DNA of 64,000 bases, taken from NCBI GenBank assembly GCA_016794345.1, contig JAEUKE010000192.1:1-64000 (forward strand). Direction: 5' to 3'. The number at the start of each line of letters is the position of its first letter. Position 1 is the first letter of the stretch. Made by a program: the position numbers and the translations under genes. Below are positions 18,873-32,470 of this stretch, piece after piece. Source of the stretch: Myxococcales bacterium (lineage in GTDB: Bacteria > Myxococcota_A > Polyangia > Polyangiales > Polyangiaceae). Below the pieces are notes generated by a model. That model saw only the letters and a program-made list of their open reading frames with translations. It was not told the DNA's origin and ran no database searches.

Positions 18873-21800
18873 TCAGCCGTGACCGAAGTCCACCCCGGTG
18901 ATGTCCTCCCGCTTCGGGAACCCCGATAGCGCGAGGGAGCAGAGCATGCCGGACATGGTCGCCGACTCCATGGCCCCGACGTTGAGCCCACACCAGGTCC
19001 AGTCGCCGGTCAGGTAGAGATTGGAGAACTCCTCCGGATCGTGGACCTGGAGGCGATACCGGCTGCTCCCCGGGACGCTGAGGACGTAGCGCTCGGTGAG
19101 CGCCACGTTCGCCTTGAAGAATTGGGAGTCGATGCGGTCCTCGCCGACGTGATGCCCGGGGCGCAGATCGACGAGCAGATCCCAGTCGAAGCGGAGCTTG
19201 CCGCCCACCTCGCGCATGGCCTTCGGCCACACGACGCCGATGCCCTCTTCGAGCAGGCGGATCGCGTTCGCGCGCACCTTGGCGGCCTGCGCATCGCAAT
19301 CGAAACAAGGAGGAAGCGGCACCCCGGGCGGCGGCACGTCGTCGTCCGCCATGGTGCTCGTGTAGTAGCCGAGGTTCAGCGGGTACGGATCGGCGGGCCA
19401 CGCCTCGAAGGGGACGATCTCGGTGAGGTCGCCCCACACGTTGAGCCAGCTCTGGTTGTCGTAGTCCCACGACGCGATCGGCCCGCCGACGAACGGAAAG
19501 CCCATCTGCGTCGACGTGGGCTTCAGCCAGAGCTGGAGCGCCTGCGTCCGCACGGTCTTCACGTTCGCCGTCGCCGCTTGCCATTTGGGGCTGGAGGCGA
19601 TCAGCCCGCCGCAGATCCACGGCAGCGCCGCGATGGAGATCCCGAGGACCACGTCGTCGAAGTCACGACCGCGCTCGAGCACCACCTCGCCCGCGTCAAC
19701 AAGCTCCTTGGGCGGGCACTCGAGGTTCACGCCGCTCTGCCGGTATCGCTCCCCTCCGACGATCTGCTCCCAGCGCGGAGCCGCCGGCCAGCACGGCAGC
19801 CCCTTCACGTCGATGAGCGGGTCGTAGCCGCCCTTGTCCTCTTGCTCGGGCGTGATGTCGACCTGGCGGGCGATCCGGATGCGCTTGATGGGCTTGTCCG
19901 GCAGGGTCTCGTCGTGCACGAGCTCGACGACCCGGTGGAAGAACCGGAAGCGGACGCCTCGTTTCTTCATGACGAGGTACATCGGTGCGTAACAGGTGTC
20001 GGCGGTCCCGGCGGCGAAGCGGTAGCCGAACGCCCCCTTGTAAGTGAACAAGGAGCGCACCATCCCGCGGAGAGCGGTGCCCGCCGCGAAGGACTCGTTC
20101 GGCGGATACGTCGCGCCTGGGGGGATGCTCGTGTCGCCGTTCTCGTAAGCGAACGAGGAGTCGTACACGGCGCGAATGACAGGCGAGTCGAGCAGCACGC
20201 CGCCGTCGTCGATGGCGTACTTCTTCACGAAGGCTCGGAAATTGTAATGGTCGAGCACGTCGAACCCGCGCTCGAGCACGCCCTCCTCGAGCATGCCCGT
20301 CAGGTTGGCATAGCCGAAGTTGGCGAGGATCCAGAGGCGGCGCCCCGACGTGTCCGTCATGACGCTCGGCTCGATCTGGCGCCAGAGCCACCGCATGAAC
20401 GCGCCGAGGACGTCACAGACGACGCGCCGCAGCTCCACCTCGACGCCGTCCTTCGCGCGGCGCGCCAGCTCGAGGAGCGCTCCGAACAGATCGTGCCCCG
20501 GCGTCGGGCCATGTTCGGTGGACGCCCCGTGGGAACGCGCCTGCTCGAGCGCCGCGAGGTGCTCCGTCGGATCACCCGCCTCGAGCACGGCGCCCGAGCC
20601 CGCGTGGTCCTTGAACAGCTCGTGAAGCGCCTCGAGCGCCATGAGCACGTACTCCCACAGCGGAAGCAAGAGCCCGCCGCTCCCTGGCACCTCTTCGTTG
20701 GGCGGGTTCTGGATCACCCAGAAGAGGTGCTTGCCTCCGATGTTCTCGGTGAAGACGGCTTCGTTGGCCGGATGGAACGCCTGCTGCCAGGTCGCGAGGG
20801 GCTGATCGGGCGCGCGGCCGAGCTCCGCATAACAGTCGCGCACCTGCCGGAAGCAGTTGTCGTAGAAGCCGAACCAGTTGTGGAGGCCGTGCTCCTCGAT
20901 GCGGTGACCGAGCTCGGGGTTGCGGCCGGTGGCCCCCTTTCCTCCGAGGCGCCAACCGAGCTGATAGACCGTCACGTCCATCTCGGGCGCGCGGGGATTG
21001 TCCGGGTGCGTCAGCTGGAAGGCGGCCGTCATGGCCGATTGCCCGGAGCCCAGCACGACCACGCGGCGCTTCCCCTGGACGGGCCTGGACACCTCGGACG
21101 GTGCGCTCGGCGCGGGCCGCGGGAAGGCGGCGACCATCCGGTCGCGAGGCGGGGGAGAGCCGCTCCGCTCGAGCAGGTCCCGGATGTCGTCCGCGACGCT
21201 CCCTCGTTCGCCGAGCCGCACCAGCTCGATCACCGACGAGACCGGGAACGGCGGACGAGCGATACCGTGAGCGATCTCGGTGACGAACAGATCCATCGCG
21301 CGGATCTCGGTCTCGCGCTGGTGCGCCGGAACCGACGCGAGGCGGGTGGCGTGGCCCCACGCGATCTCGCGCGCGGTCTTCATGCTGAAATCGACGAACG
21401 CGTCCTCCGCGCGCCCGGCGATCCGGTTGATGGCGCGGAGCAGCGGCCAGATCTTCGTCAAATCGTCCATGACGCCGCCGAGCAGCCCGGCGAGCAGGTC
21501 GTTCATCTTGTCGAAATCGGGACGAAACGCGGCCAGGTCGGCGGCGGGCACCGAGTCCGCCACGGCGATGCCGAGGTCGAAATCGATATGAGCGTTCATT
21601 CCCAGGAGGAGGTGCTGCAGGACGATCGGGTCCGCCTGCTGGGCCGTGGAGAACGCGACCTCCCAGCAGCGTGAGCACGGACGCTTCTCCTTCCACGCCT
21701 CGAGCGCGGCCAGGTACCGATTGAAGAAGACGACGTCGAGGCTCTCCATGTGAGCCGGATCGGCGAACTCCCCGTCGGCTATGGCCCAAGCGAACTTCAC

Positions 21801-21917
21801 CGCGACGTGGCGGTAGAGCGCGGTGAAGTAGCCGGTGCGGTCGCTCTCGGCGATCGCACGCGCCGCGAGCTCGTCGATGATGCGGATGACGTCGTGCAGG
21901 TTCTTCGCGGGCCTCAC
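18873..21917 (-). CDS. DUF5995-FAD oxidoreductase fusion
   Basis: 1014 residues from GTG 21917, with AAGGAGG as ribosome site. Residues 1 to about 250 look like DUF5995, including the NAHIDFDL motif at 108-114. A Pro/Ser linker leads to an FAD-binding Rossmann fold, VVVLGSGQSAMTAAFQL at about 286-302, then the amine-oxidase/phytoene-desaturase-type pattern YQLGWRLGGKGATGRN. The C-terminal part keeps a second flavin-contact region (LYLTGDWTWCGLNVGAMESA). The protein is probably cytosolic or peripheral. The substrate is unknown, perhaps a lipid or isoprenoid. It follows the cyclase/AAA gene after 27 nt and may share its transcript. Its size, near 1000 residues, is about twice that of the plain FAD family. 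Confidence 0.8.
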   Translation of the reverse strand: MRPAKNLHDVIRIIDELAARAIAESDRTGYFTALYRHVAVKFAWAIADGEFADPAHMESLDVVFFNRYLAALEAWKEKRPCSRCWEVAFSTAQQADPIVLQHLLLGMNAHIDFDLGIAVADSVPAADLAAFRPDFDKMNDLLAGLLGGVMDDLTKIWPLLRAINRIAGRAEDAFVDFSMKTAREIAWGHATRLASVPAHQRETEIRAMDLFVTEIAHGIARPPFPVSSVIELVRLGERGSVADDIRDLLERSGSPPPRDRMVAAFPRPAPSAPSEVSRPVQGKRRVVVLGSGQSAMTAAFQLTHPDNPRAPEMDVTVYQLGWRLGGKGATGRNPELGHRIEEHGLHNWFGFYDNCFRQVRDCYAELGRAPDQPLATWQQAFHPANEAVFTENIGGKHLFWVIQNPPNEEVPGSGGLLLPLWEYVLMALEALHELFKDHAGSGAVLEAGDPTEHLAALEQARSHGASTEHGPTPGHDLFGALLELARRAKDGVEVELRRVVCDVLGAFMRWLWRQIEPSVMTDTSGRRLWILANFGYANLTGMLEEGVLERGFDVLDHYNFRAFVKKYAIDDGGVLLDSPVIRAVYDSSFAYENGDTSIPPGATYPPNESFAAGTALRGMVRSLFTYKGAFGYRFAAGTADTCYAPMYLVMKKRGVRFRFFHRVVELVHDETLPDKPIKRIRIARQVDITPEQEDKGGYDPLIDVKGLPCWPAAPRWEQIVGGERYRQSGVNLECPPKELVDAGEVVLERGRDFDDVVLGISIAALPWICGGLIASSPKWQAATANVKTVRTQALQLWLKPTSTQMGFPFVGGPIASWDYDNQSWLNVWGDLTEIVPFEAWPADPYPLNLGYYTSTMADDDVPPPGVPLPPCFDCDAQAAKVRANAIRLLEEGIGVVWPKAMREVGGKLRFDWDLLVDLRPGHHVGEDRIDSQFFKANVALTERYVLSVPGSSRYRLQVHDPEEFSNLYLTGDWTWCGLNVGAMESATMSGMLCSLALSGFPKREDITGVDFGHG

Positions 21918-21944
21918 CGTTCGGTCCTCCTTCGAGAGCGTGTC

Positions 21945-24900
21945 TCAGTCTGCCGCGCTCGCTTCGCGCGTATGGATCCGTGCCCCCACCGACTCGAGCT
22001 TGGCCAGGCCGCTCGCGGCGAGACCGGGCGCCTCCTTCGCGGGCGCGACGCTGGCGAGCGCCAGGAGGAGCCGGCCTTCTTCGGTCACCATTCCGAGCTC
22101 GCGAGCCGCGGCGAGCCCCGCCTCGTAGGAGCGCCGCGCGGCGCCCGTCCGGCCGCGACCGCTCGCGAGCCGCCCACCGGCCAAGCAGGCCGCGGGCCTC
22201 GCGATGGGAAACAGACGCCCGAACCCCTCGAGCCACCGGCACGCCTGCTCGGCGCGCGCTCGGGCGCGGCGCGGATCGGCGCCTGCGGCCCGGCCTTCGA
22301 AGGCGGCCGCGAGATACGCGTCCGCTACCGCGACATAACCGTCCAGCGAGATGTGACCGGTCGGTCGCCCCTTCGCGCGCTCGATGAGCTCGAAGGCGCG
22401 ATCGATATGCGACCATCCGGCCGGGTCACCCTGCCGGAGCAGCGCGGCGCCGAGCATGCCCACGCAGCTGATCTCCATCAACCCGACGGTGTTGCGATCC
22501 AGGAGCGCGATCGATCGGGAGAGCAGCCGCACGGCCTCCGGGAGCCTGCCGCGCACCAGCGCAATGGCGCCCAGCCACCCGGTGCCCCAGATCTCCTGGA
22601 CGAATCGGTCGTCGCCCGTTCGCGTGGCGAGCAACGTCTCGAGCGTACGCTCGGCGTCCGCGTAGCGGCTCGCGAGGTATTGGGTCGTGCCGAGCAGCCC
22701 GAGCGCGTCGCGGCGCCTGCCGATCTCACCGAGCTTCTCGAACGTGGCCGCGGCCTCCGTCTCGTCGCGCTCGACCTCGTCGAACTCGCCGAAGGCGGCG
22801 CCAGAGAGAGAGCGCTGGTGGCAGAGCATCGCGCGGGAACGTGGGTTCGCCAGACCGGCCACCACGCCCTCCGAGAGCGCCTCGTACCGGCGGCAGAGCG
22901 AGCGCTGGCCGACGACGCCCGCGATGATCGAGAGGACCGCGTAGGCCTCGGCGAGCTCCTCCGAAGGGCCGGCGCGCTCGGCGACGTTCACCTGCCGGAG
23001 GGCCGCGTAGATGCTCGGGCCCTGCAGCCCGCCCAGGTAGTAGACCTCCGACAGGTTCTGATAGAGCGAGACGGCCGTCCGCATGTCGTCTCGCCTCGAG
23101 CTCGGCGAGGAAATGGCTGCGCGCGAGGGAACGATGCGGTGGGCCACCTGCGTCGCGAGCTCGCCGACGATGCCGGAGACCAGCTTCGCTCCGGCCTTGG
23201 GCACGTCCTTGTCGAAGACCCGCACGGCCTCCTCGGCTCGCTCGGTGCTGCGCGGGAGATCGCCGAGGCGATACCAGGCATTGGCGATGCGCCGCTTGTG
23301 GTGGGCGCGGACGGCCTCCGGCACCGTCGGCGGAGCCAAGGCGAGCGCGCGCTCGAGGAAGACCGTCGTCTCTCGGAAGGCGCCGGCGCGGAGCGCGGCC
23401 TCCCCCGCGGATCCGAAATGGTCGGCGGCGCGCGCGCCGTCCTCCGCGCCCACGTAATGGTAGGCGAGCGTGACGTGCCACGGGCCGAGGTCGGCCGCGT
23501 GCCTTGCGCTGAGGTGCGCGGCTGCGGCGCGGTGCAGCTCGCGCTTCGTCGCGAAGAGGAGCCGACCGTAGGCCACGTCCCGGACGAGCGCGTGACGAAA
23601 GGCGAGCTCGCCGTCCCGCCATTCGAGGAGATCGCGGGCTGTCAGGCGGTCGACCGCGCGTTCGAGCTCGTTCGGCGACGGGGCGCGCTCGCCCGCGACG
23701 ACCGCGGCGAGCGCCTCGGCGTCGAAATGGGCGCCGAGGACGCTCGCCCGCCCGAGCACCGCGAGCTCGCTCGGATCCAGCCGATCGAGGCGTTCGCCGA
23801 TGAGCCCTTCCACGGTGCCGGGCAGATCGATCGTCGCTTCGTCGAACGACTCCGCGAGCGTGCATTCGCTTCCCGCGACCGCGACGTGACCCGACTCGAG
23901 CAGGCTCGCGGTGAGGACGTCCGCCAGGAGCGGGTGCCCCGCGGCCCGCGTGACGAGGAACTGCGCGAGGCGCTCCGGCACGCGCGGCGCGCCGAGCCGC
24001 GCGCACGCGACCGCCAACGTGTCTTGGTCGCTGAGGCCCGAGAGCACGACCCGCGCGGCGCTCGCCTCGAAGAGCTTCGCCTCGTCGTCCGATCGCTCCG
24101 GGTCGCCGCTCTCGCGCGGGCGGGCGAGGACGACGAGGACGACACCTTGGATCTCCTGGATCAGGCGGCGCGCGAGCGCCCACGACGCGGTGTCGATCCA
24201 CTGCGCGTCGTCGAGCAACACGAGGAGCGGCGTCGCGCTGGCCTTCATCGCCGAGGAGAGGAGGCGCACGGCGATCTCGCGGGTGTTGTCGGCGCGAACC
24301 TCGTCGGTCATCCAGCGCACGAGCTCGTTCTCGGGCAGCGCGAGGCCCACGACCGGCCCGAGGAGCGGCATTCGATCCGCCATGTCCGGCGCGATCTCCG
24401 CCGCGCGCGCCAGGGTGTGCGCGGCGGCGTTCGCGTCTCCGGGCTCGATCGCGAGCAGCTCGTGGAACGGGCCGCGCCACGCGCGGAAGGGGTTGTCGCG
24501 CTCCACGGCGTCTCCAGCGCCGGAGAGGGTCCGCGCGCCTTCGGCGCGGGCGCGCGAGAGCATCGCCGCGGCGAGCTTGGTCTTGCCCATGCCGGCGGCC
24601 GCCTCGACGAAGAAGACACCGCTGTGCCCGGCTCGGGCGTCTCGAATCATCGCGTCGAGCTTGCCGATCTCGGCCGCTCGACCGACGAACGTCGCTCCGC
24701 TCGGCGCGGGTGCGGCGAGGCTCTGCGCGCGCGCTTCGAGCGAGAACACCGAGACGGGCGCGGGCTTTCCCTTGATCGCGAGCTCCCCTCTGGAGGCCGT
24801 CCCCACCTCGGGCGCCGCGGCGGAGAAGGCCGAGCTGACGAGGACCTCGCCCGGTGCGGCGGCTTGCATGAGCCGAGCCGCGAAGTTCACGACGTCCCCC

Positions 24901-25991
24901 ATGACGGCGTACGCGGCCCGCTCGGACGACCCGATCACGCCGCTCCACGCGCGGCCGTAGGTCATGCCCAGGCGGAGCGGGCTCGGAGCGATGGCAGCGG
25001 GCAGCGCGCGGAGCTCCCGCGCGACGGCCGCTGCGCGGCGGACCGCGTCGGGCTGTGCGACCGGGGCGCCGACGACGCCATACAGGTAGCTGCCTTTGTC
25101 GCCGATCGTGAGGTCGAGGAGGGAGCCGCCGCTCCGATCGAACACGGCTTGGACGGCACGAACGAGTCGATCGAGCGTCCGACCGGCGTCGGGATCGTCG
25201 TCGTAGTCGATGCCTTCGAACGCAACGAAGACAGGCACCACCGAGCGGAGGTCCGCAAAGCTCGGCTCGCTCCGGAGCCGAGCACCAAGCGCGCTCGGCA
25301 CCCAGCTCTCCAGCGCGTGAGCATCGAACGTGGGCTCGTCCGCCGCCGGCCACGGCGTCTCACCGGGCAGCACGTCGAGGCCATCGAGGACGAAGAGCTC
25401 ACCGCGATCGTCCTTCGGGCTCGTGGGTCTCCCGCCGACCTGCTCCGCGACCTCGCGGGTGACGACGACCTCGCCGGCAGCGGCGTGCCGCTCGGCGCGC
25501 GCCATGTTTGCGATCGTGCGACCGGCGAGCGTGTCGACGAGTCGGACCTTGGGATCGCCGATCAGCAGGCGCCGCGCGGCTCCGGACGCGACGGCGACCT
25601 TGAGGGACATCACCTCGGGCTCGCTCGCGCCGCCGGCGAAGCCGCGCTGCATCGCGAGCCCACACGCGACGGCGCGCCGGGCACCGCTCGCCTGGACGGC
25701 GTGCTCGAACGGCAGGTCATCGAACCAACACGTCACCGAGTCGCCGGCGAAGGCGATGACGCTCCCCGCGTACGCATGCACCTGTCTCACGAGGATCGAG
25801 TGGACCCGGTTGATGCGGACGAGCAGCTCCTCGGCCGCGCGCTTGGGACCAAACGCCTCTTCGAGACGGGACGCGAGACCGGAGAAGCCCGTCACGTCCG
25901 CGAAGAGCGCCGCGCCCTGGCAACGCTCCGGGAGCGCCGTCCCGCGGGCGATCGCGCGGCGGCGGTCGATGGGAACGTGCGCTGCGAACAC
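21945..25991 (-). CDS. adenylate/guanylate cyclase - AAA ATPase - TPR regulatory protein
   Basis: About 1348 residues from GTG 25991; a TTG at 26030 is the alternative. Two class III cyclase-like domains come first. The first keeps likely metal Asp residues (ALFADVTGFSG and AFAGDSVTCWF). The second (VFVAFEGIDYDD, LTIGDKGSYLYGVVG) looks partly degenerate. A P-loop ATPase follows (EAAAGMGKTKLAAAML), then a Walker-B-like LLVLLDDAQW and a long helical TPR-like region. Such proteins are large ATP-switch regulators. The start was chosen because TATCTT lies 8 nt upstream. It is divergent from a kinase with a cyclic-nucleotide-binding domain, a possible receptor for its product. Confidence 0.87.
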   Translation of the reverse strand: MFAAHVPIDRRRAIARGTALPERCQGAALFADVTGFSGLASRLEEAFGPKRAAEELLVRINRVHSILVRQVHAYAGSVIAFAGDSVTCWFDDLPFEHAVQASGARRAVACGLAMQRGFAGGASEPEVMSLKVAVASGAARRLLIGDPKVRLVDTLAGRTIANMARAERHAAAGEVVVTREVAEQVGGRPTSPKDDRGELFVLDGLDVLPGETPWPAADEPTFDAHALESWVPSALGARLRSEPSFADLRSVVPVFVAFEGIDYDDDPDAGRTLDRLVRAVQAVFDRSGGSLLDLTIGDKGSYLYGVVGAPVAQPDAVRRAAAVARELRALPAAIAPSPLRLGMTYGRAWSGVIGSSERAAYAVMGDVVNFAARLMQAAAPGEVLVSSAFSAAAPEVGTASRGELAIKGKPAPVSVFSLEARAQSLAAPAPSGATFVGRAAEIGKLDAMIRDARAGHSGVFFVEAAAGMGKTKLAAAMLSRARAEGARTLSGAGDAVERDNPFRAWRGPFHELLAIEPGDANAAAHTLARAAEIAPDMADRMPLLGPVVGLALPENELVRWMTDEVRADNTREIAVRLLSSAMKASATPLLVLLDDAQWIDTASWALARRLIQEIQGVVLVVLARPRESGDPERSDDEAKLFEASAARVVLSGLSDQDTLAVACARLGAPRVPERLAQFLVTRAAGHPLLADVLTASLLESGHVAVAGSECTLAESFDEATIDLPGTVEGLIGERLDRLDPSELAVLGRASVLGAHFDAEALAAVVAGERAPSPNELERAVDRLTARDLLEWRDGELAFRHALVRDVAYGRLLFATKRELHRAAAAHLSARHAADLGPWHVTLAYHYVGAEDGARAADHFGSAGEAALRAGAFRETTVFLERALALAPPTVPEAVRAHHKRRIANAWYRLGDLPRSTERAEEAVRVFDKDVPKAGAKLVSGIVGELATQVAHRIVPSRAAISSPSSRRDDMRTAVSLYQNLSEVYYLGGLQGPSIYAALRQVNVAERAGPSEELAEAYAVLSIIAGVVGQRSLCRRYEALSEGVVAGLANPRSRAMLCHQRSLSGAAFGEFDEVERDETEAAATFEKLGEIGRRRDALGLLGTTQYLASRYADAERTLETLLATRTGDDRFVQEIWGTGWLGAIALVRGRLPEAVRLLSRSIALLDRNTVGLMEISCVGMLGAALLRQGDPAGWSHIDRAFELIERAKGRPTGHISLDGYVAVADAYLAAAFEGRAAGADPRRARARAEQACRWLEGFGRLFPIARPAACLAGGRLASGRGRTGAARRSYEAGLAAARELGMVTEEGRLLLALASVAPAKEAPGLAASGLAKLESVGARIHTREASAAD

Positions 25992-25999
25992 TGCCGCGC

Positions 26000-26005
26000 A
26001 AGATA
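26000..26005 (-). promoter_or_regulatory. -10-like hexamer TATCTT
   Basis: On the minus strand TATCTT lies 8 nt before the GTG at 25991. It supports that start and a short-leader transcript for the cyclase gene. Confidence 0.35.
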
Positions 26006-26063
26006 CGCCACCCTCTCGGGCTTGAGGCAAGTCGTGGTACGGTTCCGACCTGAGGTTCTGCTG

Positions 26064-27551
26064 TTGAGCGGCGATTCGTCAGGGCGTGAGCCCAAGCCGG
26101 CGGTGACCACCGTGAAGTGCTCGATCCCCGAGAGCATCGCCAACCTGATTCCGCCCGCCCTCCGCCGCGACGAACGGGAGGTGCCGACCGTGGAGGAAGA
26201 GGTCCCCGCGGAGATCCCGCTCTTCCTCTCCGTGAAGGCCCCGAGCAGCCAGGACACGCCCGCGCCTCCCCCCGAGAGCGGCGTGTCCCCGCGGCCGAGC
26301 GAGCCTCCCGGCGACGGCCGCGTCCACGAGCGCTTGCGAGAGATCGCCGCCCTCTCGCAGCCCGATCGCTACGCTTACCTCGATCTGCTCGGCCGCGGAG
26401 GCATGGGCGTCGTCCATCGCGTCGCCGACCGCGTCCTCGGGCGCGAGGCGGCCATGAAGCTGCTCGAGGGCCCGCTCGGCGATCGCCCGGTCGAGGTGCT
26501 GCGGTTCCTGGAGGAGGCGCAAATCACCGGCCAGCTCGATCATCCGGGCATCGTCCCCGTCCACGACTTCGGCATCGGCGCCGACGGCTCACGCGCCTAC
26601 TTCACGATGAAGCTCGTCCGAGGCGACACGCTGGCGCGGCTCATCTCCACGCACCGAGCGCTCGGTCTCGAGGGCCGCACCCTCGAGCGGCTCTTGCGGG
26701 CGTTCGTGCGGGTCTGCGAAGCGGTCTCCTTCGCCCACGCCCGGCGTGTGGTCCACCGCGACCTGAAGCCCGACAACATCCTCCTCGGCAGCCACGGCGA
26801 GGTCTACGTGATGGACTGGGGCCTCGCGCGCGTCGTCGAAGGGGGTCGCCCCTCCGAGAGGGCGGTGACCCGCGGGCCAGTCGCGGGGACCCCCGCCTAC
26901 ATGGCGCCCGAGCAAGCGCAGGGCCGCAACGAGGACATCGATCAGCGGTCCGACGTGTTCGGCCTCGGCGGCATCCTCTACGCCATCCTCGTCGGTCGCG
27001 GCCCCTTCCAGGCCGACAAGCCCGAGAAGTCGCTGCTCATGGCGCAGCGCTACGAGCTCGAGCGGATCGACGACCAGCGGGAGAACGTTCCCCCCGAGCT
27101 CGCGCGGATCGCCATGAAGGCGCTCGCCGAGCATCCCGACGACCGCTACCCGACGGTGGAGGAGCTCGCTCGGGACGTGGAGGAGTTCCTGCGCGGCGGA
27201 GGCTGGTTCGTCACCCGGAAGTACGAGCCCGGCACGACGATCATCGAAGAGGGCGAGCCCGGCAGCGCGGCGTACGTCCTCGTCGAGGGGACGTGTGAGG
27301 TGATGAAGATGGTGGACGGCCACCGCATCAAGCTGCGTACCCTCGGCCCCGGAGACGTCTTCGGCGAGACGGCCGTCTTCACGGCCAAGCCGAGGAGCGC
27401 GACCGTCATCGCGGTCGATCACGTCACCGTGAAGGTCGTGACGCGCGAGTCCCTCGAGCGCGAGCTCGACCGGAGCCCCTGGATGGGCGCCTTCGTCCGC
27501 GCGGTCGCCGAGCGCTTCCGCGAGGCAGACGAGAAGCTCTCGAAGCGTTGA
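26064..27551 (+). CDS. Ser/Thr protein kinase fused to a cyclic-nucleotide-binding domain
   Basis: About 495 residues. The kinase core has GRGGMGVVH, the Lys in AAMKLL, HRDLKPDNIL with Asp233, and DWGLAR in place of DFG (Asp251). After it comes a cNMP-binding fold with the phosphate-binding cassette FGETAVFTAKPRSATV (Gly434, Glu435, Arg444), so it resembles a bacterial cyclic-nucleotide-regulated kinase. There is no transmembrane helix. The start is uncertain: TTG 26064 has GAGG 8 nt upstream and TACGGT at 26038, but GTG 26034, 26103 and 26112 are in frame. It is divergent from the cyclase gene. Confidence 0.88.
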   Translation: MSGDSSGREPKPAVTTVKCSIPESIANLIPPALRRDEREVPTVEEEVPAEIPLFLSVKAPSSQDTPAPPPESGVSPRPSEPPGDGRVHERLREIAALSQPDRYAYLDLLGRGGMGVVHRVADRVLGREAAMKLLEGPLGDRPVEVLRFLEEAQITGQLDHPGIVPVHDFGIGADGSRAYFTMKLVRGDTLARLISTHRALGLEGRTLERLLRAFVRVCEAVSFAHARRVVHRDLKPDNILLGSHGEVYVMDWGLARVVEGGRPSERAVTRGPVAGTPAYMAPEQAQGRNEDIDQRSDVFGLGGILYAILVGRGPFQADKPEKSLLMAQRYELERIDDQRENVPPELARIAMKALAEHPDDRYPTVEELARDVEEFLRGGGWFVTRKYEPGTTIIEEGEPGSAAYVLVEGTCEVMKMVDGHRIKLRTLGPGDVFGETAVFTAKPRSATVIAVDHVTVKVVTRESLERELDRSPWMGAFVRAVAERFREADEKLSKR

Positions 27552-29411: not shown

Positions 29412-30077
29412 ATGTCGCTCGATGGAGCCGCGGAGAGCGTCGAGACGGTCGAGTCGCGAGCCTTGCTCGCGCTCGCCGCCGGCGACCGCGAGCAGGCGGC
29501 GACCCTGATGCTCCGCGAGCACGGGCCGGAGGTGTCGCGTTTCCTCGCCGCGCTCCACCGCGACCCGGACGACGCCGCCGAGGTCTTCTCCGCGTTTGCG
29601 GAGGCCCTCTGGAAGTCGGTCGCGAGCTTCGAAGGGCGCAGCTCGGTGCGGACGTGGATGTTCGCGGTCGCCCGGCGCGTCTCGCTCCGCTACCGCCGCG
29701 ACGAGCGCCGGCGCCGCAAGCGCTTCCAGCCCCTCCCCGAGGGCTCCGCGCTCCTCGCGGTGGAAGCCCAGCTGCGGACGGCGACGCTCTCCTTCTTGAA
29801 GACCGAGCGACGCTCCAAGCTCACCGCCTTGCGCGAGTCGCTCCCGGTGGAAGACCAGATGCTCCTCATGCTGCGCGTCGACCGGAAGCTCGCCTGGAAC
29901 GAGCTCGCCGTCGTCCTCAGCGAAGCGGAAGGCGACGACGACGTGAGAGCGGCGCTCGCCGAGGACGCGCAGAAGCGCGAGGCCGCGCGGCTCCGGAAGA
30001 AATTCCAGCTGCTCAAGGAGCGGCTGCGTGAGCTGGGCCGGCGCGAAGGCCTCATCGGCGGCGACGACACGCAATGA
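29412..30077 (+). CDS. ECF-type sigma-70 family sigma factor
   Basis: A 221-residue sigma factor of ECF size. Region 2 is readable (PDDAAEVFSAFAEALWKSVASF, then RSSVRTWMFAVARRVSLRYRR), and region 4 covers LTALRESLPVEDQMLLMLRVDRKLAWNELAVVL. Region 4 is followed by an acidic/Ala insert before a basic helix (RLRKKFQLLKERLRELG), which is unusual. No anti-sigma factor is next to it. Instead it overlaps by 4 bp (ATGA) a soluble Ser/Thr kinase gene, as in known phosphorylation-controlled ECF groups. It probably directs polymerase to stress or developmental genes. Its promoters are unknown. Confidence 0.82.
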   Translation: MSLDGAAESVETVESRALLALAAGDREQAATLMLREHGPEVSRFLAALHRDPDDAAEVFSAFAEALWKSVASFEGRSSVRTWMFAVARRVSLRYRRDERRRRKRFQPLPEGSALLAVEAQLRTATLSFLKTERRSKLTALRESLPVEDQMLLMLRVDRKLAWNELAVVLSEAEGDDDVRAALAEDAQKREAARLRKKFQLLKERLRELGRREGLIGGDDTQ

Positions 30078-32470
30078 CCAACGCGGCCGACGTCGAGAGC
30101 GTCGACTCCTTCCTCGCCGAGCTCGCGCGCATCTCGACGATCTCGCCCGCCGTTCCGCTGCCTTCCTTCGAGCCCGGGTTCGTCCTCGCTCGACGGTACG
30201 AGCTGAAGCGCGCGATCGGTCGCGGCGCGCACGGGGTCGTCTGGACCGCCGCGGACGCGCTCACGAGCTCGGACGTCGCCATCAAGCTCCTCCGCACCAG
30301 CGAAAAGACCGAGGCGGCTCGCGTCTGCGCAGAGGTCGCGACGCTTCGGCGCCTCAACCTGCCGGGCGTGGTCCACCTCGTGGACGACGGCATGGAGCAG
30401 GGGTCCTTGTTCCTGGTGATGCCGCTCGTCGACGGACAGCCCTTCCCCGGCTTCGACACGCCGGCGGATTGGGCGGCGCTGAAGGGCCCGCTCTCCGCGC
30501 TCCTCTCCAGCCTCGCACACGTGCACGCCGCGGGGATGGTCCACCGGGATCTCAAGCCCGCCAACGTCCTCGTCGATCGGGCCGGGCACCCGACCATCCT
30601 GGACTTCGGCCTCGTGCGAGCGCTCACGTTCGAAGACCTGCTCGGCTCCGGCATGATCGCCGGCACGCCTGCTTATCTCGCGCCCGAGCAGGCCTCGGGA
30701 GCCAACATCGGCCCGACGGCCGATCTCTACGCGGTAGGTGTGATGGCCTACGCCGCGCTCGCGGGCCGCTTCCCCCATCAGGCGCCCGACCTCCGGCTGC
30801 TCCTCGCCGCAAAGCGAACGCGCCCGCCACCGCTCGCCACGGTCGCTCCCGGTGTGCCGCGAGAGGTCGCGGCGGCGATCGATGCCATGCTGGCGCCGAG
30901 GCCCGACAAGCGACCCGCGACCGCAGACGACGCGCTCGCGAGGCTCGATCCCACGTCGGCCGGTCGGGCGGGTTGGGCCAGCGCGCGAACGGCGCGCCTC
31001 GAGGTCCGCGATCCGGTCACGGTGGAGGGCCTGGAGCAGCTGTTCGAGAGCCAGCTGCCGTGGACCAGGAGAGACGCCGCCAAGCTCCTCTTCGATCGAG
31101 CGGGCGCGAGCGCGTCCGGCGTGCGGAACGAGGTCGAAGCCTGGGTGCGCGCCGGGTGGTGCCGCCAGAACGCAGGCGCATCGCCGAAGCTCTTCGTCGA
31201 CGACGAGACGATCGACAAGCTCGCGATCGGTTTCGCGTTCGGCATGCCCGAGAGCTCGCTGGCCTTTGCCCAGGAAGCGATCGAGCTGGCGCGAAGGGCA
31301 GCCGAGAGCGGACAGCTCGGCCGAGCGACGGCGCTCTTGCAAGAGTCCCTCTCTGCGCTCCGCCACGCGCCGTCGGCGCCCGAGGCGCTCGTCCTCCGCG
31401 CGCTCAGCCTCCAGGTCGAGGTCGCGGTGGCGATGGGGACGCCGGGCGCGCTGGACCACGTCCTCTACGAGATCTGCCGGGTCGACGGCGTCACGTCGCC
31501 ACTCCTCGGCCAGCTCGAGGCGCTCGTGCGCGCGGCCCTCGCCGTCGGCGCGTGGACCGAGCGCGCCCTGGATCTCGCCGACGCGCTCCCCCCGTTCGAA
31601 GACGAGGCGCTCGAGCGCCTGCGCAACGGCGTCCGCGTCCTCGCGGCGCGTCGCGTCTCGCTCGAGCGCGAGGAGACACTCATCGAACGGCTCTCGAGGG
31701 AGGCCAGCCCCGAAGCATCGGCGATGACACGCGCGGCGATGGCGCAATGGAAGGGGCGCTTGCGATACCGACAGGGGCGCTTCGAAGAAGCGGCCCTGTG
31801 CCACGGCGAGGCCGCCGAGGCCGCAACCTGGGCGACGGAGCGCGCGGTCGCGCTCGGCAGCCAGGCGTCCGCCCTGATGGAGGCGTTTGCGTTCGACGAG
31901 GCCGCCAAGATCGCGCCGCTCGCGGTGGAGGCCGCCGTCGCCTGTCGGCACGCCTACGGCTGGGCTCGTGCGCTCTGGGCCCAGCGGATGAACGCCTACC
32001 GCCGCGAGGAGCGCGTCTCACCCGATCTCGGGTTCGTCGAGGCCGTCGCCTCGCTCCGCATGACGGAGCTCCACTCGCTCGTGTGCCTCTCCGAGGCTGC
32101 GTTCGCCTGGCGGCTCGGGAGCACAGCGGCCGCGCTCGAGCTCGCGACACGAGCCAGACAAGGATGGACCTCGGTCGGTGAGCGCGGCGGCGGGCTGCTC
32201 CTCGCCTCCGCGCTCACGGTCGCGTGCTCGCCGGAGGCCCCCGACGACACGGCGGTGCGGGATCTCCTCGGCGGGGCGGCCCGCTGCAACGTGCCCGGCA
32301 TCGGGATCCAGGTGTTCGGGCTCGTCGCGCCCAGGCTCCGCGAGCTCGGCGTGGAGGACGCCACGATTTCCTCGCTGGCGGCCCAGATCGACAGGCGGCA
32401 CTGGGGCTACCGGATCGACGTGCTCTCCGTCGACGAGTCGCTGCAGCGGCTCAGCTGCAGACCGCCGTGA
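30074..32470 (+). CDS. soluble Ser/Thr protein kinase with C-terminal helical repeats
   Basis: 798 residues without a transmembrane segment. The kinase has GRGAHGVVW, the Lys in AIKLLR, HRDLKPANVL with Asp159 and DFGLVRAL with Asp177, then APEQASG. From about residue 300 the sequence is a long helical TPR-like solenoid as in PknK-type or MalT-like regulators. It overlaps the sigma factor gene by 4 bp, so translation is coupled and the sigma factor is a probable partner or substrate. The 3' end overlaps the convergent basic-tail gene by 20 bp. ATG 30074 is fixed by the overlap. Confidence 0.9.
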   Translation: MTNAADVESVDSFLAELARISTISPAVPLPSFEPGFVLARRYELKRAIGRGAHGVVWTAADALTSSDVAIKLLRTSEKTEAARVCAEVATLRRLNLPGVVHLVDDGMEQGSLFLVMPLVDGQPFPGFDTPADWAALKGPLSALLSSLAHVHAAGMVHRDLKPANVLVDRAGHPTILDFGLVRALTFEDLLGSGMIAGTPAYLAPEQASGANIGPTADLYAVGVMAYAALAGRFPHQAPDLRLLLAAKRTRPPPLATVAPGVPREVAAAIDAMLAPRPDKRPATADDALARLDPTSAGRAGWASARTARLEVRDPVTVEGLEQLFESQLPWTRRDAAKLLFDRAGASASGVRNEVEAWVRAGWCRQNAGASPKLFVDDETIDKLAIGFAFGMPESSLAFAQEAIELARRAAESGQLGRATALLQESLSALRHAPSAPEALVLRALSLQVEVAVAMGTPGALDHVLYEICRVDGVTSPLLGQLEALVRAALAVGAWTERALDLADALPPFEDEALERLRNGVRVLAARRVSLEREETLIERLSREASPEASAMTRAAMAQWKGRLRYRQGRFEEAALCHGEAAEAATWATERAVALGSQASALMEAFAFDEAAKIAPLAVEAAVACRHAYGWARALWAQRMNAYRREERVSPDLGFVEAVASLRMTELHSLVCLSEAAFAWRLGSTAAALELATRARQGWTSVGERGGGLLLASALTVACSPEAPDDTAVRDLLGGAARCNVPGIGIQVFGLVAPRLRELGVEDATISSLAAQIDRRHWGYRIDVLSVDESLQRLSCRPP

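Follow-up and report, generated by a model that had tools for sequence, protein, structure and literature searches.

The cyclase gene and the divergent kinase gene in the analysed stretch of DNA (64,000 nucleotides; the window) probably belong to a local cyclic-nucleotide signalling module, in which a cyclase-to-kinase circuit is coupled to a flavin enzyme, perhaps one of isoprenoid metabolism. The pairing recurs in distant relatives, often together with a flavin enzyme, and therefore probably reflects a real signalling circuit. The observations behind this reading are domain content, fold, conserved catalytic residues and recurrent gene linkage.

The window comes from a 9.66 Mb genome in 321 contigs (G000); among relatives whose contigs carry names, the nearest belong to Polyangiaceae and Sandaracinaceae. 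Gene calls are heuristic and GC-frame based. The gene for a tandem class III cyclase resembling soluble adenylyl cyclase (sAC) and carrying a STAND ATPase occupies 21945-26030 on the minus strand, as delimited by its open reading frame, Pfam matches (AAA_16, Guanylate_cyc) and relatives, and the gene for a kinase carrying a cNMP-binding (CNB) domain, KC, occupies 26112-27551 on the plus strand by reading frame, Pfam and family alignment. Both lie where the initial annotation had placed a divergent cyclase and kinase-CNB pair, and the match scores exclude chance. The cyclase reading frame, 26030-21945, has 1361 codons counted from TTG 26030; a start at GTG 25991 is more likely, since it coincides with the beginning of a relative (L108, genome G038), with TTG 26030 also open. 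The mechanical reading frame of KC is 21750-27551 on the plus strand, its Pkinase and cNMP_binding matches share one frame to 27551, and the most likely start is GTG 26112. Taking the starts as GTG 25991 and GTG 26112, the two genes are separated by ~120 bp (25992-26111), in which neither a CRP-like site nor a sigma-70-type promoter was found above chance. A closer neighbor of the cyclase than KC, absent from the initial annotation, begins 27 bp downstream: an oxidoreductase gene, OXR (18873-21917, minus strand), with DUF5995 and FAD/NAD-binding amine-oxidase-like parts, delimited by Pfam and conserved adjacency. Elsewhere in the window, at 29412-32470, an ECF-type sigma factor gene overlaps by 4 bp the gene of another Ser/Thr kinase, whose C-terminal region is long; these likely form another small signalling operon.

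The cyclase contains two tandem cyclase domains followed by an ATPase. Pfam identifies AAA_16 (E 2e-18) and one strong Guanylate_cyc stretch (E 2e-13), and the best match in a PDB sequence search, human sAC, spans both C1 and C2. C1 (~residues 36-215; 25386-25925, minus strand) is defined by alignment to human sAC 39-189 and carries the metal Asp residues D45 and D97; C2 (~residues 258-432; 24735-25259, minus strand), defined by Pfam, the sAC alignment and a structural model, carries N382, R386 and the base-reading positions D306 and A375. The AAA_16/STAND domain follows at residues 447-628 (24147-24692, minus strand; Pfam E 1.9e-18) with the P-loop GMGKT. The annotation's "class III cyclase/AAA/TPR" architecture holds for the cyclase, as two tandem domains, and for the AAA_16 domain; no Pfam TPR family matches the window protein at E 0.01, and TPR_12 matches four of seven cyclase relatives. 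An AlphaFold model of residues 1-439, built from 24 homologs, has a pLDDT of 89 and a pTM of 0.90, and matches human sAC across both domains (Foldseek E 1e-28; Z 38.6 across 420 residues). D45, D97, N382 and R386, corresponding to sAC D47, D99, N412 and R416, are invariant in 24/24 relatives drawn from Polyangiales, Chloroflexi, Cyanobacteria, Gemmatimonadetes and Verrucomicrobia. Judged by sequence and model, the cyclase core appears catalytic.

The residues that read the base are unusual. At the position of sAC K334 the window cyclase has D306 and the 24-member family has Gln in 17, Asp in three, Glu in two and His in two; at that of sAC T405 it has A375, and the family has Gly in 14, Ala in four, Ser in three, Thr in two and Met in one. 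K312 was considered as the counterpart of K334 (an "AC-type Lys") and rejected; in the ungapped alignment K312 falls on K340 and D306 on K334. A large cross-phylum sAC-like family mostly has Gln/Gly where human sAC has its adenine-reading Lys/Thr. The bicarbonate site of sAC is formed by Lys95/Arg176 (PMC12250328); the window cyclase has A93 and A174 there, and neither position is conserved in the 24-relative alignment. With both base-reading positions nonstandard and the bicarbonate residues absent, these residues do not specify the substrate or product of the cyclase. The default guess stays cAMP, given that Rv0386 of Mycobacterium tuberculosis has Gln at the Lys position and is nonetheless a cAMP-producing cyclase.

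KC combines a PknB-like Ser/Thr kinase domain (26373-27164, plus strand; Pfam Pkinase E 7e-39; motifs AMK, HRDLKPDN, DWG and APE), whose top structural match is PknB, with a C-terminal CNB domain (27216-27473, plus strand; Pfam cNMP_binding E 1.3e-22). The phosphate-binding cassette with its Arg, FGETAVFTAKPRSATV, is present as previously described. The catalytic Lys, HRD Asp, Asn and DxG Asp of Hanks-type Ser/Thr kinases are kept in 58/58 family members, and the cassette retains its Gly and its Glu in all 58 of them and its Arg in 56; from the sequence, the kinase domain looks active and the cassette looks canonical. The suggestion that the Ser after the cassette Arg favors cGMP is not borne out: across the 58 members this position holds Thr 29 times, Ala 17 times and Ser 10 times, and CRP, a cAMP receptor, also carries Ser there. 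A literature search, with most subscription journals outside its range, found no paper on kinase-CNB fusions in bacteria.

Comparison of KC loci provides evidence that the pairing is not peculiar to this genome. When 58 KC loci of the order were gathered and their flanks, some cut by contig ends, were scanned with a local cyclase HMM, a cyclase was found within 2 kb in seven (the window genome, G002, G056, G019, G045, G035 and G066) and within 7 kb in nine (the same seven plus G029 and G040). The expected number within 2 kb is 0.16 at 0.75 cyclase domains per Mb; because the local HMM, built partly from the window cyclase family, differs from Pfam's in sensitivity, the rate was also doubled as a check, giving 0.32. 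After likely shared ancestry is collapsed to five events, the Poisson P for at least five is ~8e-7 to 2e-5, from small counts and with this first enrichment test being post hoc. For comparison, 39 control Ser/Thr kinases, drawn from many of the same genomes, were scanned as well, and none of them has a cyclase inside the 7 kb flanks (Fisher P 0.023 at 2 kb and 0.007 at 7 kb). On the KC tree, cyclase pairing needs seven changes, at least four of them forced by well-supported branches. The partners are themselves diverse: sAC-like tandem cyclases (G000, G002, G056, G029), an AAA-GAF-cyclase (G019), a Pkinase-AAA-GAF-cyclase (G040), response-regulator-cyclases (G035, G066) and a single-domain cyclase (G045). 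Divergent, tandem and convergent orientations all occur, a variety that a single inherited arrangement would not account for.

A second set of 16 KC loci, taken from orders and classes elsewhere in the phylum, collected after the pattern was seen and given here as a raw count, contains two with a cyclase within 2 kb. In G189 this is a response-regulator-cyclase, with a CNB protein encoded between it and KC. At L306:10710-11642 a gene flanked by a KC gene and a response-regulator-cyclase gene encodes a fusion of a DUF4395 membrane domain and a CNB domain. In G132 a stand-alone tandem cyclase related to that of the window (27% identity across 402 aa, E 4e-22) is encoded upstream of KC in the same orientation, with a gap of 88 bp to the start of KC, and the two genes form a cyclase-kinase operon. 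Conservation of the pair in relatives, one of the checks that the initial annotation had proposed, turns out positive in both sets. The pair is conserved, yet it is a minority arrangement: ~85% of the 58 KC genes are without a cyclase within 7 kb, G001 of the same genus has a KC at 62% identity without a cyclase ortholog, and in G038, G041 and G053 the cyclase is present but has no KC beside it. The window genome encodes ~25 CNB domains and at least six cyclase domains, so cross-talk is possible. Small non-kinase CNB proteins are also encoded within ~600 bp of sAC-like cyclases at Chloroflexi-type and Trueperaceae loci (L114, L131, L132, L170); the raw count for CNB genes within 600 bp of Chloroflexi cyclases, ~5/80 loci, is only suggestive of enrichment.

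OXR is a steadier neighbor of the cyclase than KC and should count as a third member. Its Pfam matches are DUF5995 (E 3e-63) and NAD_binding_8 (E 3e-6), and it has no relative among PDB sequences at E 0.01. The protein carries the motif GWRLGGKGA..EEHGLH.WFGFYDN, and at L108 (G038) DUF5995 and the oxidoreductase are separate adjacent genes rather than a fusion. OXR lies within 7 kb of seven of the 58 KC genes, some of them in other families, and of none of the 39 control kinases. KC, OXR and an AAA-containing cyclase cluster in G000, G002, G056, G008, G046, G048 and G063, the last four within spans of 8-13 kb. Cyclase and OXR are adjacent in G000, G002, G038, G056 and G041, and also in Sandaracinaceae (L113), Anaerolineae of the Chloroflexi (L119), Gemmatimonadetes (L121) and Bacteroidetes (L123); G038, G041, L119, L121 and L123 have this adjacency without KC. 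A window-like layout made of unrelated parts occurs in G040 (L107:1599-10805), where KC is divergent from the giant Pkinase-AAA-GAF-cyclase gene, itself overlapped by 14 bp by a downstream amine-oxidase-family gene encoding a different enzyme from OXR. Isoprenoid-type neighbors comprise a polyprenyl synthetase in G008 (with a homolog in G046 by clustering), a CrtC-type lipocalin in G056 and a Pyr4-like terpene cyclase in G029. Such genes near KC and cyclase genes (L247, L248, L098, L105) suggest regulated isoprenoid clusters.

Recurrent linkage gives real support to a cyclase-to-kinase circuit, for which we infer cyclase activity, its product, CNB binding, the direction of the kinase response and the target. 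The complete circuit suggested by the initial annotation stays hypothetical in view of the unusual base-reading residues, the minority status of the pair and the KC of G001 without a cyclase ortholog. It is plausible that the cyclase senses a cue through its STAND-ATPase/helical-repeat part, which gates the sAC-like C1/C2 core, and that this core would produce a 3',5'-cyclic nucleotide, with cAMP as the likeliest. This messenger would bind the C-terminal CNB domain of KC and change the activity of the PknB-like kinase, and KC may then phosphorylate local targets, plausibly the OXR encoded downstream of the cyclase or regulators of OXR. A more specific version, which we think unlikely, is a three-part module of STAND-gated tandem cyclase, cNMP-gated Hanks kinase and flavin oxidoreductase whose messenger is not set by the customary Lys/Thr base readers; the product of the Q/G-type cyclase could then be cGMP, a pyrimidine cNMP or some mixture, read by the partner kinase and controlling isoprenoid-type metabolism.

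Other readings divide the locus differently. The cyclase and OXR could be the functional unit, with KC merely a frequent neighbor that reads a cell-wide cNMP pool from other cyclases. Cyclase-OXR adjacency is the widest linkage, extending over several phyla and tightened to 27 bp in the window, and the six or more cyclase domains of the genome could feed such a pool; however, KC pairs with other cyclase types where no OXR is detected within 7 kb (G019, G045, G035, G066), and G132 joins cyclase and kinase in an operon. We give this reading a modest chance of being right. The pairing could also be a coincidence in a genome where signalling genes are abundant enough to cluster by chance: it has more than 300 kinase-like first-look candidates, and the minority status of the pair fits that view. 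The control kinases, the Poisson estimate and the repetition of the pairing outside the order all argue against coincidence, which is disfavored and which we regard as highly improbable.

The last alternative concerns the cyclase itself, whose core may now make no messenger and act instead as a nucleotide-binding regulatory dimer on the STAND ATPase, KC being regulated otherwise. The departure of both D306 and A375 from sAC is consistent with this, as is the presence among the structural matches of PDB 6yii, a Pseudomonas class III cyclase-like ATP-binding protein. Invariance of the catalytic Asp, Asp, Asn and Arg and the repeated linkage to CNB proteins speak against a non-catalytic core, and we consider it quite improbable.

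Bacterial cyclic nucleotides are known to act mainly via CRP-type transcription factors. If the cyclase-to-kinase circuit is real, the recurrently linked cyclase and cNMP-gated Ser/Thr kinase would parallel the cAMP/PKA and cGMP/PKG circuits of eukaryotes but have evolved independently, with a PknB-like kinase as its basis and a candidate metabolic target adjoining. The defined cyclase-KC pairs, including the two-gene operon of G132, offer a direct test ground for the unusual base-reading residues of the cross-phylum sAC-like family.

Similar to sAC (ADCY10), the window cyclase has a tandem C1-C2 core of the same fold with the same Asp/Asp/Asn/Arg set, followed by an ATPase and helical repeats. 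Unlike sAC, it has D/A, and its relatives mostly Q/G, in place of the base-reading K334/T405, it is without the bicarbonate residues K95/R176, and it is genetically tied to an oxidoreductase. The C2 cyclase and ATPase region also aligns with the TOMM system kinase/cyclase fusion TIGR03903, although the kinase at the window locus is encoded by a separate gene. Membership in that family was rejected (134 bits against a cut-off of 706, with no kinase part aligned), and no TOMM genes were recognised among the tested neighbors. The description of KC as PKG-like stands as an analogy, in that kinase and CNB share one chain and the best PDB matches of the CNB domain are apicomplexan and mammalian PKG and PKA regulatory subunits. 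It fails in detail: the KC kinase is PknB-like rather than AGC, and its single CNB domain is C-terminal, whereas PKG has tandem N-terminal CNB domains. The myxobacterial PP2C phosphatases Mxan4398, sce2855 and sce6950 (PMC2887360) are, like KC, signalling enzymes with a C-terminal cNMP domain, with a phosphatase in place of the kinase.
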